This document shows, in pieces, positions 50,439 to 57,547 of a stretch of DNA of 58,619 nt (position 1 is the first letter of the stretch; each line of letters opens with the position of its first letter). The notes below the pieces were generated by a model, which saw nothing but the letters and a program-made list of their open reading frames with translations, ran no database searches and had not been told where the DNA came from. The stretch covers positions 1 to 58,619 of the forward strand of contig JAUNCL010000002.1 of the NCBI GenBank assembly GCA_030535235.1. The letters run 5' to 3'. The position numbers and the translations under genes were made by a program. This DNA comes from Bacillota bacterium (lineage in GTDB: Bacteria; Bacillota; Clostridia; Oscillospirales; Oscillospiraceae).

Positions 50439-51368
50439 TCAGATGGTGGGCTGGATTGCAATGGCCTGGTTCATCAGAGCGTTGAAAATGTCGGCGTTCA
50501 GGGGAGCCATCACAGTGTCAATGGCATCCTTCAGTTCGGTGTTGCCCTTGAGCACGGAGATACCGATGTTGATCTCGCCCTCGTCCACGGTGAAGTCATC
50601 TTCGGTGCCGGTGAAGTCCAGAATGGTCAGGTCGCTATAGGTGGCGCAAGCGCCCAGAGCGGTGGGCATGTCGGTGCAGATGAAGTCCACGGTGCCGGAG
50701 GCCACAGCCATAATCATAGCGGGTGCGGTCTCAGACTCGGGCATGATCTCAGCGCCGGCGATCTGGGGCAGGCAGGAGTCATACCAGATGGTGCCGGTCT
50801 GGGCGGTGCAGGTGCCGGTGAGCTCGCTGATGCCCTTGGCGGCAGCCTGCTCGCTGTCAGCCTTGGTGACGCAGACGATGGAGGCATAGAAGTAGGGGCC
50901 GGCCATGTCGACCTGCTCCATACGCTCGGCGGTCATGGACTGACCGGCAATGACGGCATCGATGGTGCCGGCCTGCAGGGCGGGGATCAGACCCTCCCAG
51001 CCAATGGACTGGATCTCCAGCTCCCAGCCGTAGGTATCGCAGATGCGCTGGGCAATCATCACGTCATAGCCGTTGGCATAGGAACCGGGGTTGTTCACGA
51101 TAGGCACAGCGCCGTTGGAGTCGTCGGTCTGAGTCCAGTTGTAGGGTGCGTAAGCGCACTCCATACCGACGGTGAGCACGCCGTCTTCCACGCCGGGGAT
51201 GGCGCTGGTGTCCACGCCGGTCAGGTCCTCAACAGGGGGGATCTCCACGGTTTCAGTCTGGTTATCGGGGGTTTCCTCGGGGGCAGGTTCCCCAGAGGTG
51301 GAACCGCCGCAGGCGCACAGGCCCAGAGACAGGACCAGTGCCAGGGTCAGGGCAAGAATCTTCTTCAT
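50439..51368 (-). CDS. Amino acid ABC transporter substrate-binding lipoprotein (probable lysine)
   Basis: The 309-residue family 3 solute-binding protein has a lipoprotein signal (MKKILALTLALVLSLGLCAC, lipobox LCAC). A short Pro/Glu/Thr linker and two alpha/beta lobes follow, with LTVGMECAYAPYNWTQ and NGYDVMIAQRICD in the first lobe and AVIAGQSMTAERMEQVD (Arg that grips the amino-acid carboxylate). First gene of the operon. The leader carries a lysine riboswitch with a terminator, so lysine should lower its expression. Start at 51368 follows AAGAGGAAA; the open frame upstream lies inside the leader and is not real. Confidence 0.93.
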   Translation of the reverse strand: MKKILALTLALVLSLGLCACGGSTSGEPAPEETPDNQTETVEIPPVEDLTGVDTSAIPGVEDGVLTVGMECAYAPYNWTQTDDSNGAVPIVNNPGSYANGYDVMIAQRICDTYGWELEIQSIGWEGLIPALQAGTIDAVIAGQSMTAERMEQVDMAGPYFYASIVCVTKADSEQAAAKGISELTGTCTAQTGTIWYDSCLPQIAGAEIMPESETAPAMIMAVASGTVDFICTDMPTALGACATYSDLTILDFTGTEDDFTVDEGEINIGISVLKGNTELKDAIDTVMAPLNADIFNALMNQAIAIQPTI

Positions 51369-51410
51369 GGTTGGTTTCCTCTTTTCATTAAAAATTTTTG
51401 AACGAACAGC

Positions 51411-51442
51411 AAAAGAGCCACGAATCCGGGCGGACTCATGGC
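51411..51442 (-). terminator. Riboswitch-controlled terminator of the lysine transporter operon
   Basis: Minus-strand GCCATGAGTCC/GGATTCGTGGC, an 11-bp stem with G-U pairs, then TCTTTT. The 5' arm (CCATGA) can instead pair with TCATGG that overlaps the 3' side of the aptamer P1 helix, giving a standard antiterminator. Confidence 0.8.
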
Positions 51443-51472
51443 AAACGCAGACAGGGGACATCCCCCTGCACC

Positions 51473-51639
51473 ATGATAGCGCTCCATTTGCGAAAAAATG
51501 GCAGTCCGGCAGATCTTCTCTGACGGCCCAGGCGTCCGGCGGACAGGCACCCGTCCGGACCCTTCGGCGGCGGCCCCTTTCCCTTCCCGGTCTTCCTGCC
51601 GGAGCTGGAAGGTACTGATGAACGCCGCGCCTCTATCAT
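51473..51639 (-). promoter_or_regulatory. Lysine riboswitch (L box)
   Basis: Minus-strand leader with the L-box landmarks in order: P1 5' arm ATGATAG, AGAGGCGCGG, CATCAGTA, GGGAAGGGAAAGG, CGCCGAAGG, CTGGGCCGTCAGAGAAGA, GGACTGCCAT, and the 3' end AATGGAGCGCTATCAT closing P1. The 167-base length is right. Known family behaviour: lysine binding stabilises P1 and turns transcription off. Here P1 competes with the antiterminator, so lysine should favour the terminator at 51411. Confidence 0.92.
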
Positions 51640-51647
51640 TTTTTCTC

Positions 51648-53948: not shown

Positions 53949-54887
53949 TCACAGGGTTTCTCTATAAAACCGCCAGACGTTTTCCCAGCAGATTTTGTCG
54001 ATCTCCCGCTGGGTGAAGCCGGCGTGTTCCATAGCCCGGATCAGCTGGCCCATGCCGGCGGCATCCACCATTTCCAGGGGGCAGGTGATGCCGTCGAAGT
54101 CGCTGCCCAGGGCCACCACCTCCAGGCCCCCCACGTCCACCATGTGCTTCATGTGGCGGACGATATCGGCGGTGCGGGTGGTCTCGCTGTCGGCCAGGAA
54201 GTCGGAATAAAAATTCACGCCCACCACGCCGCCCCGGTCGGCCACGGCCTTGATCTGCTCGTCGGTGAGGTTCCGGCGGTGGGGCCACAGGGTCCGGGCG
54301 CTGGAATGACTGGCGGCGAAGGGCTTTTGGACCAAACGGCACACGTCCCAAAAGCCCTCCTCGTTCAGGTGGGACACGTCGGGGACCATCCCCAGGGCTT
54401 CCATCTCCGCCAAAAATTCCGCCCCCTTCTCCTTCAGGCCGCCGGACTGGCCGTTGGGGAAGCCCAGCTCGTTCTCGTGGTTCCAGGTGAGGGTGAGCAT
54501 CCGCACCCCCAGGCGGTGGAGGGTGCGGAGGTTATTCAAATCTCCCTTGCACACGCCCCCCTCCTCCACGGTGAGGACAGCGGCGAGCTTTCCCTGCGCC
54601 CGGGCCTGTTCCAGGTCGGCAAAGGTCCGGCAGGGGGTCACCAGGTCCCGGTTTTTCTCCACCTCGCTGGTGTACAGCTCCGCCAGGGTGAGGACCGCCC
54701 CCCAGGGGTCGGGCTCCTCCGCCAGGTTTACAAACAGGGCGAAGTTTTGCAGGAGGTAGCCGCTCGTTTGCAGCTTTTTCAGGTTGATGTGCATGGGCTC
54801 CGAGTCCCGGAGGCCCATCTCCTTCCCCCGGCGGCGGTTGTGCCTGATCCAGGCGATGGTATCACAGTGCAGGTCGACAAAGGGCAT
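53949..54887 (-). CDS. Membrane (renal) dipeptidase family protein, M19
   Basis: Zinc dipeptidase of 312 residues with a full M19 metal site: HCD near the N terminus (H7, D9), the bridging Glu in TVEEGG (about 107), DVSHL, ASHSSAR and GSDFDG. Family members cleave L-Xaa-(D/L)-Xaa dipeptides, including Cys-Gly and wall-derived peptides. It has no signal peptide, so it is cytosolic. Start follows AGGAG, and a separate extended -10 promoter is at 54928. The tandem glycine riboswitch lies upstream on the same strand, but two terminators intervene, so control by it is uncertain. Confidence 0.9.
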   Translation of the reverse strand: MPFVDLHCDTIAWIRHNRRRGKEMGLRDSEPMHINLKKLQTSGYLLQNFALFVNLAEEPDPWGAVLTLAELYTSEVEKNRDLVTPCRTFADLEQARAQGKLAAVLTVEEGGVCKGDLNNLRTLHRLGVRMLTLTWNHENELGFPNGQSGGLKEKGAEFLAEMEALGMVPDVSHLNEEGFWDVCRLVQKPFAASHSSARTLWPHRRNLTDEQIKAVADRGGVVGVNFYSDFLADSETTRTADIVRHMKHMVDVGGLEVVALGSDFDGITCPLEMVDAAGMGQLIRAMEHAGFTQREIDKICWENVWRFYRETL

Positions 54888-54927
54888 GGGTCACACTCCT
54901 ATTACAATGGGCGAAACAGTTTCATTC

Positions 54928-54956
54928 AGTGTAGCACAGGCGGGGCGGTTGGGCAA
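54928..54956 (-). promoter_or_regulatory. Promoter of the dipeptidase gene
   Basis: On the minus strand TTGCCC and TACACT separated by 17 bases, with an extended -10 (TGCTACACT), 41 bases before the start. Confidence 0.7.
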
Positions 54957-54990
54957 CTCCTTTCCCCCGGTCCACAGGCAAAAAAGGATG

Positions 54991-55017
54991 CAAAAAAGAC
55001 AGCTGTTTCCAGCTGCC
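54991..55017 (-). terminator. Second terminator downstream of the glycine riboswitch
   Basis: Minus-strand GGCAGCTG-GAAA-CAGCTGTC, an 8-bp stem with a GAAA tetraloop, then TTTTTT. It lies 57 bases beyond the first terminator, with no gene between them. Confidence 0.85.
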
Positions 55018-55073
55018 TTTCTTGCAGAAAAAGAGAGTGTTCCCTGGAAGGTGGGAAGGAATCACAAAAAAAG

Positions 55074-55126
55074 AAAATAAAAAAAGATATACGGGCAGTT
55101 CTCGCGTCATCGCGTGCCTGTATATC
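55074..55126 (-). terminator. Riboswitch-associated terminator
   Basis: Minus-strand hairpin GATATAC-(A)GGCA ... TGCC(C)-GTATATC with an inner CGCG/CGCG, then TTTTTTTATTTTC. It begins directly after the P1 helix of the second aptamer, so it is likely the expression platform. Confidence 0.85.
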
Positions 55127-55296
55127 CTCTGTACCTCAACCTGAAAGCGTTACTTCTACGGCGACCGCCGGGGGCGGTACTCTCCAGAGTTTCGTCCATA
55201 GAAGGTACCTGGTACCTGAAAGATTCTCCCGAGGCTGGCGACCTGGGGATTGCTTCATCGGTTTCTCTCGGCAGGGCCGAAAGAATCTCCCTTCTA
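55127..55296 (-). promoter_or_regulatory. Tandem glycine riboswitch
   Basis: Minus-strand RNA with two glycine aptamers in series. Aptamer I (55199-55296) is closed by TAGAAGG/CCTTCTA and contains GCCGA, GAAGCAA and ATCTTTCAGGTACCAGG. The linker reads ATGGACGAA. Aptamer II (55127-55189) is closed by CTCTG/CAGAG and contains CTGGAGAG, GCCGTAGAAGTAA and GCTTTCAGGT. These are the diagnostic glycine-aptamer landmarks. Family members usually activate gcvT or glycine-transport genes; neither is nearby. Confidence 0.9.
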
Positions 55297-55329
55297 CTTC
55301 ATCCGAATCGATTCAATTTTTACGAGTGC

Positions 55330-55358
55330 ATTATAGCGCAGTCCCTCCCCTCTGTCAA
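55330..55358 (-). promoter_or_regulatory. Consensus promoter of the glycine riboswitch transcript
   Basis: On the minus strand TTGACA and TATAAT, both perfect, with a 17-base spacer, just upstream of aptamer I. Confidence 0.92.
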
Positions 55359-55431: not shown

Positions 55432-55502
55432 CAATATCAAATATTAGGTTTCTCCCCGGGGGGTTGGCCCCAAGAAACGGAAAGAAAGAAGGACGCAACG
55501 AC

Positions 55503-55919
55503 ATGATGATCTCTACCAAAGGCCGCTACGCTCTGCGGGTGATGCTCGATCTCGCTGACCACAACACGGGCGACTATATTCCTCTGAAGGATATCGCTCG
55601 CCGCCAGGAGATCTCCGTGAAGTACCTGGAAAACATTCTCGCCTCGCTCAGCCGGGCGGAGCTGGTGGATGCCGCCCGGGGGAAGGGGGGCGGCTACCGC
55701 CTGTCCAAGCCCCCCGCCGACTACCCCGCCGGCGAGATCATCCGTCTGGCCGAAGGGGACCTGGCCTCGGTGGCCTGTCTGAAGGGGGACGGCGTGGGCT
55801 GCGAAAAGGCCAACCACTGCCGGGCCCTCCCCCTGTGGCAGGGGCTGGACAAGGTAATCGTGGAATACCTCAACAGCTATTCCCTGGCCGACCTCCAGCA
55901 GATCGAGGAAGACATCTGA
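55503..55919 (+). CDS. Rrf2-family transcriptional regulator with three cysteines
   Basis: The 138-residue protein has the N-terminal winged helix (MISTKGRYALRVMLDLA, DIARRQEISVKYLENILASL, ARGKGGGYRL) and a C-terminal segment with C92, C100 and C106. Three cysteines in this place bind a [2Fe-2S] cluster in IscR/NsrR-type members; the spacing here (8 then 6) is close to, but not the same as, the usual one. CymR-type members lack them. It may sense iron-sulfur status, redox or nitric oxide. No suf/isc genes follow; the next gene is a MATE exporter beyond a MITE-like element. Two adjacent ATGs (55503, 55506) fit AAGAAGGA. Confidence 0.88.
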   Translation: MMISTKGRYALRVMLDLADHNTGDYIPLKDIARRQEISVKYLENILASLSRAELVDAARGKGGGYRLSKPPADYPAGEIIRLAEGDLASVACLKGDGVGCEKANHCRALPLWQGLDKVIVEYLNSYSLADLQQIEEDI

Positions 55920-55947
55920 TCCCCAGGAAGAGAATCGGCCGCAAAAT

Positions 55948-56084
55948 GGCCTCCCTTGTGAAAGGGAGGGGGACCGCCGTCAGGCGGTGGAGGGATTCCG
56001 GTTTCCCGCTCACGCTGGTGGTCAACGGGAATCCCCCCCTGTCACAGCTTCGCTGTGCCACCCCCCTTTGACAAGGGGGGCCTT
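55948..56084. mobile_element. MITE-like element with imperfect inverted ends
   Basis: A 137-base non-coding element between the Rrf2 and MATE genes. Left end GGCCTCCCTTGTGAAAGGGA; the right end read inward is AAGGCCCCCCTTGTCAAAGG. Each end has an inner hairpin (ACCGCCGTCAGGCGGT; CACAGCTTCGCTGTG) and GGATT towards the centre. Same plan as the element at 23588, different sequence. Confidence 0.7.
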
Positions 56085-56155
56085 GTGCACCCTGTGCCTC
56101 TACAGCGCCCGGACGACGCAGACCCCGTTTCACACTGAAAGGAGAGAACATCCCC

Positions 56156-57547
56156 ATGAAACCTGCCGAGACCCCCGGGGGCAATCCCCTGGGCACCGCC
56201 CCGCTGGGGCCGCTGATCCTCAAGTTCGCCGTGCCCTCCATCATCGCCATGCTGGTGGGCTCGGTCTATAACATCACCGACCAGATCTTCATCGGCCAGG
56301 TGGTGGGTATGCTGGGCAACGCCGCCACCAACGTGGTCTTCCCCCTGGTGTCCCTGTCCATCGCCCTGTCCCAGATGGTGGGCGTGGGTATGGCGGCGGG
56401 GTTCAACCTCTCCCTGGGAGCCGGGAAGGAGGACGAGGCCAAGGGCTTCGTGGGGACCGGCCTGACCCTGGCCGCTTTGCTGGGGCTGGTGTTCACCGTG
56501 GTGGTCCTCCTCTTTGAGACCCCCCTCCTTCTCCTCTGCGGGGCCACGGAAAACGCCCTGCCCTACGCCCGGGAGTACCTCTCCATCACCGTCTGGGGGA
56601 TGCCCTTCGTCATCTTCGCCAACGGAGTCTACCCCATCATCCGGGCCGACCGGAGCCCCAAGGTGGCCATGACCTCCTCCCTGCTGGGGGCGGGGCTGAA
56701 CATCTTCCTGGATTGGCTCTTCCTCTATCCCCTGGGCATGGGGATCCGGGGGGCGGCCATCGCCACGGTCATCAGCCAGGTGGCCTCCTTCCTGGTGTGC
56801 CTGGCCTACTTCCCCAGGTTCCAGGCCTTCCCCCTCCGTTGGTCCATCCTGGGGCTGAACGGGCAGTACGTCGCCCGCATCGTGAAATTAGGCACCGCCA
56901 GCTTCTCCAACCACATGGTCATGACCCTGGTGAACGTGGTGATGAACAACACCCTCACCCACTACGGCGCCCTGTCGGTCTACGGCAGCGACATCCCCCT
57001 GGCAGTGGCCGGGGTGGTGACCAAGGTCAACATGATCATGGTCTCCTTCGCGGTGGGTCTGGCCCACGGCTGCCAGCCCATTCTCAGCTTCAACATGGGG
57101 GCGAAGCAGTACAGCCGGGTGAAGGGGACCTTCCTGCGGAGCGCGGCGGCGGGGCTGGTCTTCAGCCTGTGCGCCTTCGTCCTCTTCCAGTGCTTCCCCC
57201 GGCAGATCGTCTCCATCTTCGGTGCGGGGGATCCCCTCTACTTTGACTTCGCCGAGTCCTATCTGCGGATCTTCATGTTCATGGTCTGCCTCTTTGGCAT
57301 CCAGCCCCTGTCGGTGAACTACTTCACCGCCGTGGGCGAGGTGAAGCAGGGCATCTTTCTGTCGGTCTCTCGGCAGGGCTTCCTGCTGCTCCCCCTGCTT
57401 CTGATCCTGCCCCTCTTCCTGGGGCTGAACGGCGTCCTCTGCGCCGGCCCCATCGCCGACTTCCTGGCGGTGGTCCTGTCGGTGACCATGCTGCGGCGGA
57501 ACTTCCGAAAGCTGGACCGGCTGGAGCGGGAAAAAGCCACCTCCTGA
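56156..57547 (+). CDS. MATE family efflux transporter
   Basis: Sodium- or proton-driven multidrug exporter of 463 residues with 12 membrane segments in two similar halves. Typical stretches are FAVPSIIAMLVGSVYNITDQIFIGQ in helix 1, the NITDQ loop, and PILSFNMGAKQY (about 302-313), which marks the MepA-like branch. Substrate unknown. Start follows AAAGGAGA. The upstream gap is the MITE-like element plus ~70 bases with no clear promoter, so it may be read through from the Rrf2 gene and be its target, but this is inference. Confidence 0.9.
   Translation: MKPAETPGGNPLGTAPLGPLILKFAVPSIIAMLVGSVYNITDQIFIGQVVGMLGNAATNVVFPLVSLSIALSQMVGVGMAAGFNLSLGAGKEDEAKGFVGTGLTLAALLGLVFTVVVLLFETPLLLLCGATENALPYAREYLSITVWGMPFVIFANGVYPIIRADRSPKVAMTSSLLGAGLNIFLDWLFLYPLGMGIRGAAIATVISQVASFLVCLAYFPRFQAFPLRWSILGLNGQYVARIVKLGTASFSNHMVMTLVNVVMNNTLTHYGALSVYGSDIPLAVAGVVTKVNMIMVSFAVGLAHGCQPILSFNMGAKQYSRVKGTFLRSAAAGLVFSLCAFVLFQCFPRQIVSIFGAGDPLYFDFAESYLRIFMFMVCLFGIQPLSVNYFTAVGEVKQGIFLSVSRQGFLLLPLLLILPLFLGLNGVLCAGPIADFLAVVLSVTMLRRNFRKLDRLEREKATS

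Follow-up and report, generated by a model that had tools for sequence, protein, structure and literature searches.

What does a tandem glycine riboswitch control when no gene for glycine metabolism or transport follows it? The question is raised by the minus strand of a 58,619-nt stretch of Oscillospiraceae DNA (the window), in which a promoter, glycine aptamer 1, glycine aptamer 2, a terminator (T1), a second terminator (T2), and a second promoter precede, in that order, the gene for an M19 dipeptidase. The sigma-70 promoter of the riboswitch (positions 55330 to 55358, minus strand; TTGACA-17-TATAAT) matches the consensus at 12 of 12 positions, and a promoter scan over 3.5 kb returned 3 promoter-like sites, compared with 0.7 ± 0.7 in shuffled sequences. 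With the Rfam glycine model RF00504, which has a gathering cut-off of 32 bits, aptamer 1 (55193 to 55302, minus strand) scored 44.1 bits and aptamer 2 (55119 to 55197, minus strand), which has a short P3, scored 41.2 bits in a search of its own genome, so that both qualify by score as glycine riboswitches; a cmscan of the whole window at the gathering cut-off listed aptamer 1 alone. Aptamer 2 scored 53.4 bits with a local glycine model (R1), of whose training set it is a member. The GGAGA, CCG, and CT-T-CAGG core is kept in both aptamers and falls in invariant columns of a 20-row alignment that has the two aptamers among its rows. The 344-nt leader folds at −126.9 kcal/mol (z score, −5.4), a value equaled by none of 100 shuffles. 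The tandem model RF03166 (glycine-GGAnGA) covers both aptamers over its full length (55306 to 55125; 80.6 bits; E value, 3.4e-17), yet this score lies below the 110-bit cut-off, and membership was rejected; the gcvT tandem of this genome scores 76.7 bits with the same model. Rfam matches to SpF25, frnS, rox2, STnc50, and ZNFX1-AS1_2 between 54900 and 55450 were far below their cut-offs and were taken as chance.

T1 with its U run occupies 55079 to 55130 on the minus strand (−21.6 kcal/mol; z score, −4.9), with core arms at 55126 to 55115 and 55097 to 55086, and its lower stem (AGAG:UUUU) shares sequence with the 3′ strand of the aptamer 2 P1. T2 (54989 to 55026, minus strand) is a 17-bp stem with a GAAA loop (−26.5 kcal/mol; z score, −7.8). 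A consensus terminator scan listed T2 and missed T1, its total of 5 sites being not above that in shuffles (4.0 ± 2.3). The T2 pattern has a single copy in the genome at up to 3 mismatches, and near-copies lie at the ends of a short-chain dehydrogenase gene in G002 and a histidine kinase gene in G158 (genes judged by eye); in form, T2 resembles ordinary gene-end terminators. A repeated or mobile element was rejected as the source of the block, as the T2 pattern occurs only once and the flanking repeats are weak and have no terminal inverted repeats. The interval between the terminators (55027 to 55078, minus strand) is pyrimidine-rich and holds no credible gene. The sole minus-strand frame of at least 60 amino acids across it (54922 to 55110; 62 amino acids) passes through both hairpins and was not accepted as a gene. 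The preliminary description of this locus had reported a consensus promoter, two glycine aptamers, and a terminator on the minus strand and had proposed the RF00504 search, and all of these elements are borne out; the strong second terminator with its GAAA loop is also as described, except that its low end lies at 54989, not 54991.

Neither a gcv gene nor a glycine transport gene is adjacent to the block, as had been stated, and the downstream glycine metabolism or transport gene expected of an RF00504 member was not found; the next gene is that of the M19 dipeptidase, behind T2 and a promoter of its own. The dipeptidase gene (53949 to 54887, minus strand) is intact (PF01244; 295 bits; residues 1 to 309 of 312), and its extended −10 promoter, also pointed out previously, is real (54956 to 54928 on the minus strand). 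The same motif stands before the dppD-like gene in G001, G002, and G008, the pattern having been derived from these three sequences and the window. The gene order in the genus is an Rrf2-family regulator divergent from dppD-dppF-like ATPase genes, which are followed by the dipeptidase gene. An oligopeptide/dipeptide-type ABC ATPase gene (dppF) lies directly upstream of the dipeptidase gene in 7 of 8 same-genus genomes in which the upstream side was read (only 166 nt in G009; G011 differs). In G002 and G008, one contig carries both the dpp-dipeptidase operon and the Rrf2 gene divergent from it; in G010 and G004, Rrf2 is separated from the first ATPase gene by a small gene, only Rrf2 and the dppD-like start are seen in G001, and the assemblies of G009 and G013 stop short of the rrf2 spacer. 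The best match to dppF in this genome is 48% identical, compared with 76 to 79% for the dipeptidase orthologs and 84 to 86% for the Rrf2 orthologs of the nearest species. By sequence comparison, two dpp ATPase genes have been deleted here and the dipeptidase has inherited the promoter of dppD; the putative scar of the deletion (54888 to 54927, minus strand; compared with G001, G002, G008, G009, and G013) is fused to the dipeptidase ribosome-binding site.

The riboswitch block itself is an extra segment in this neighborhood. The divergent Rrf2 gene of the window (55464 to 55919, plus strand) matches PF02082 at 119.5 bits and scores above the cut-off of TIGR00738 and below that of the IscR model. 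Its start codon and the dppD-type promoter lie 547 nt apart in the window versus 229 nt in G002, 234 nt in G001, and 198 nt in G008, a spacer 313 to 349 nt longer, in which the excess is the riboswitch block and the flanks are alignable, the exact edges varying with the alignment mode. No riboswitch was found in same-genus rrf2 spacers with RF00504 (E ≤ 0.001 and stricter filters) or, at loci L112, L119 to L121, and L127 to L131, with the local glycine model (E ≤ 1). In G002, iscS- and iscU-like genes (by eye) follow Rrf2; the window has no iscS match by tblastn and has a MatE transporter after Rrf2 (55464 to 57547, plus strand), and therefore rrf2 looks rearranged on both sides. A lysine riboswitch is also present in the window (51469 to 51643, minus strand; RF00168, 95.3 bits), before an amino acid ABC binding protein (50439 to 51461), and another lies downstream of the dipeptidase in G013 (L110, 5378 to 5548).

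The origin of the block is suggested by its closest relative. When the promoter-to-T1 DNA was used as a query against 400 family genomes, 18 matched at an E value of ≤0.01, and the nearest tandem besides that of the window was in G289, of another genus (E value, 4.1e-22; 73% over about 200 nt, positions 42 to 241 of 286); the next-best match had an E value of 1.3e-4. Downstream of the G289 tandem come, in order, a terminator, a ribosome-binding site, the gene for a 443-amino-acid APC permease (PF13520, 210 bits; TIGR00911, 229 bits, below the cut-off of that model), and a gene-end terminator hairpin. This leader (contig C23) shares with the window two adjacent aptamers, a sigma-70-type promoter, and a terminator right after aptamer 2, but the window has no gene after T1. 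No ortholog of the permease was found in this genome, where the best match is 29% identical. A second tandem-permease pair, L165 in G119, involves a different APC permease (147 bits). Among 47 standard pairs compared between the window and G289, 33 are the same, 7 are changed on one side, 3 on both sides, and 4 are broken, and the both-side changes are not above slid controls (0 to 3 pairs).

Taken with the anatomy above, the position of the closest tandem before a permease gene points to the block as a relic leader, in the order promoter, tandem, T1, lost permease gene, and T2, to which we give a probability of about 0.7. At some time the spacer from rrf2 to the dppD promoter would have contained, originally or by insertion, a unit composed of promoter, tandem glycine riboswitch, T1, amino acid permease, and T2. 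Its permease gene, which would have occupied the T1-T2 interval, would then have been lost, leaving the intact promoter, both aptamers, T1, and T2, the latter presumably the 3′ terminator of the lost gene. The deletion of the two peptide transporter ATPase genes would be a separate event, as a result of which transcription of the dipeptidase would now start directly from the former dppD promoter. Transcripts are predicted to start near 55323 and either to end at T1, giving an RNA of about 250 nt, or to pass T1 and end at T2 (about 335 nt), with little or no transcript from the block reaching the dipeptidase. A decayed leader whose gene was lost was among the explanations first offered for this locus and is now the favored one; the preliminary description had leaned away from it because the promoter and aptamers are intact, and it is the relatives that favor a lost gene. 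Against the relic reading, the permease context comes from one genome of another genus, no decay is visible in the promoter or the aptamers, and the T1-T2 interval, some 50 nt long, shows no trace of a permease frame. The lack of visible decay indicates either that the loss was recent or that something keeps the promoter and aptamers. A glycine transporter or gcv gene between the terminators in relatives had been named as a sign of recent deletion, and the tandem-permease-terminator arrangement of G289 comes close to this; since this nearest tandem belongs to another genus, the loss need not be recent.

Alternatively, the leader may have stayed on after the loss of the permease as a free-standing glycine-sensing small RNA gene, in which glycine-governed read-through of T1 would yield a longer transcript ending at T2, with the CU-rich, Shine-Dalgarno-complementary UUCCUUCCCACCUUCC exposed for action in trans. 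We consider this unlikely. The block is indeed self-contained, with a perfect promoter, intact aptamers, two terminators, and a CU-rich interval between them, and riboswitches acting as or within regulatory RNAs have been described, such as SreA/SreB and EutX (in the part of the source consulted, PMC4691137). SreA/SreB of Listeria and EutX of Enterococcus likewise are riboswitch RNAs without an essential downstream gene, but they bind other ligands, and the likeness of the block to them is one of layout. EutX has two successive terminators, as does the window block. In Clostridioides difficile, a c-di-GMP riboswitch lying between CD2517 and CD2517.1 is listed as an orphan with "no known function" (PMC11477304); it too is an aptamer without an assigned gene, for a different ligand and in a different organism. 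In a literature search of limited coverage, no report of a trans-acting glycine riboswitch was found, and PMC2765633, which contains the terms "glycine riboswitch" and "dipeptidase," concerned unrelated matter in the part seen. To our knowledge, no trans-acting glycine riboswitch has been described.

A trans-acting RNA would be expected to persist as a gene-less unit in relatives, and the preliminary description had proposed a synteny comparison of the riboswitch-double terminator block for this. As a DNA query against 200 family genomes, the whole block returned, besides itself, short matches alone; no second copy of its T1 part lacking a gene turned up in 400 family genomes, and the readable same-genus rrf2 spacers did not contain it. 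T1 also seems weakly coupled to P1. A T1 that requires the 3′ strand of the aptamer 2 P1, as in G289 and the gcvT leader, is the usual ON-switch logic. Withholding this strand changes the energy of the window T1 from −21.6 to −18.1 kcal/mol, a cost of 3.5 kcal/mol, compared with 13.0 kcal/mol in G289 and 9.2 kcal/mol in the gcvT leader of this genome, and the T1 lower stem over P1 is rich in G-U and A-U pairs in the window versus CAGAG:CUCUG in G289. The modeled coupling looks weaker in the window, in favor of a relic, and because the remaining hairpin stays flush with the U run, T1 may no longer respond. This is a hint rather than a proof, because the cation-efflux leader of G013, with its gene in place, shows a cost of only 1.5 kcal/mol. 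In unconstrained folding, the probability of the aptamer 2 P1 was 0.000 with T1 and 0.003 before the T1 3′ arm, values that do not separate the directions of switching. If the small RNA reading were true, the block would be a trans-acting glycine riboswitch and would show the leader of a lost gene becoming a small RNA.

Gene-less glycine aptamers occur elsewhere in the genus and family. RF00504 was found in 35 of 60 relatives searched, a set that includes the genome of the window and 15 others of its genus. The 32 loci in these 16 genomes precede, as judged by eye from translations, gcvT (11 loci), a Na/Ala symporter (11 loci of two kinds, 5 and 6), or a cation-efflux gene with an RF03166 tandem (3 loci); six are adjacent to a LysR gene with no intervening gene, one of them cut by a contig end, and one is the window. 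An RF03166 match at a contig end (G002:C48:95467-95588) was left out of this count. When the 30 best-scoring RF03166 loci of the family were fetched and the window and the contig-end locus were set aside, 1 of 28 (L168 in G070) had no visible same-strand gene, and together with the same-genus loci this indicates that glycine aptamers without a gene are uncommon, although the window is not the only case. The L168 tandem (G070:C9, about 1501 to 1660) lies beside an IS110-type transposase and is another stranded leader.

The LysR-adjacent riboswitch is represented by L122 (G000:C51, 3698 to 3797) and its homologs L163, L154, L155, L156, and L161, each with a single glycine aptamer and a conserved terminator and no gene of its own. 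It was aligned in six species (G000, G001, G002, G009, G013, and G015, the G015 contig ending before LysR), and the next same-strand gene, about 330 to 630 nt away, encodes a LysR regulator. A gene judged by eye to encode a phosphoketolase lies upstream in G013, with no symporter visible in between. The roughly 400 nt from riboswitch to LysR have a mean identity of 80% in four species (L156, 5226 to 5620; L163, 880 to 1268; L155, 1975 to 2355; L154, 1888 to 2280), with an invariant AAAAGGAGAATATGGAAA and a strong terminator-like hairpin on the strand opposite LysR. This segment had no Rfam match at an E value of ≤0.5 (L122, L154, L155, and L163) and a covariation term of just −0.88; it is possibly an unknown noncoding RNA. 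As a candidate for a functional orphan, the LysR-adjacent riboswitch is more promising than the window block.

Dual control of the dipeptidase had also been proposed; that glycine acts on it through transcripts passing T1 and T2, in addition to its own promoter, is very improbable. The gene is on the same strand, with 232 nt between aptamer 2 and its start codon, and M19 dipeptidases can release amino acids. The very strong T2 intervenes, however, the promoter is inherited from the dpp operon, and of the 44 dipeptidase loci fetched from named genomes, the 40 that extend 400 nt or more upstream all lack a glycine aptamer according to the local glycine model. The sole weak match, in L080 (14.5 bits; E value, 0.9), is inside the dipeptidase gene. 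Among tandem loci that had not been used to train it, the model detected 3 of 3, but only one aptamer of each. Equally improbable is a remnant of another glycine riboswitch gene of the genus, such as that for the 218-amino-acid Cation_efflux protein behind RF03166 tandems in G013, G009, and G001 (L113, L114, and L115; 131 bits), for which the absence of a match to this protein in this genome and the 80.6 bits of the window speak, but that score is under the cut-off and the gcvT tandem scores similarly, the AUAACCAAC signature that marks those leaders is absent from aptamer 2, and local alignment scores to them (49 to 53) are no better than those to gcvT leaders (54 to 64).

The left-over control region of a lost transporter gene beside an unrelated peptidase is probably ordinary. 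As a relic, the block would be a clear example of how an orphan riboswitch may originate: the leader outlives its gene, and through a deletion close by, an enzyme with no relation to it comes to look like its target. A pipeline that automatically assigns a riboswitch to the closest gene within 500 nt, a rule used in PMC6944388, would record this locus as a riboswitch-controlled dipeptidase.
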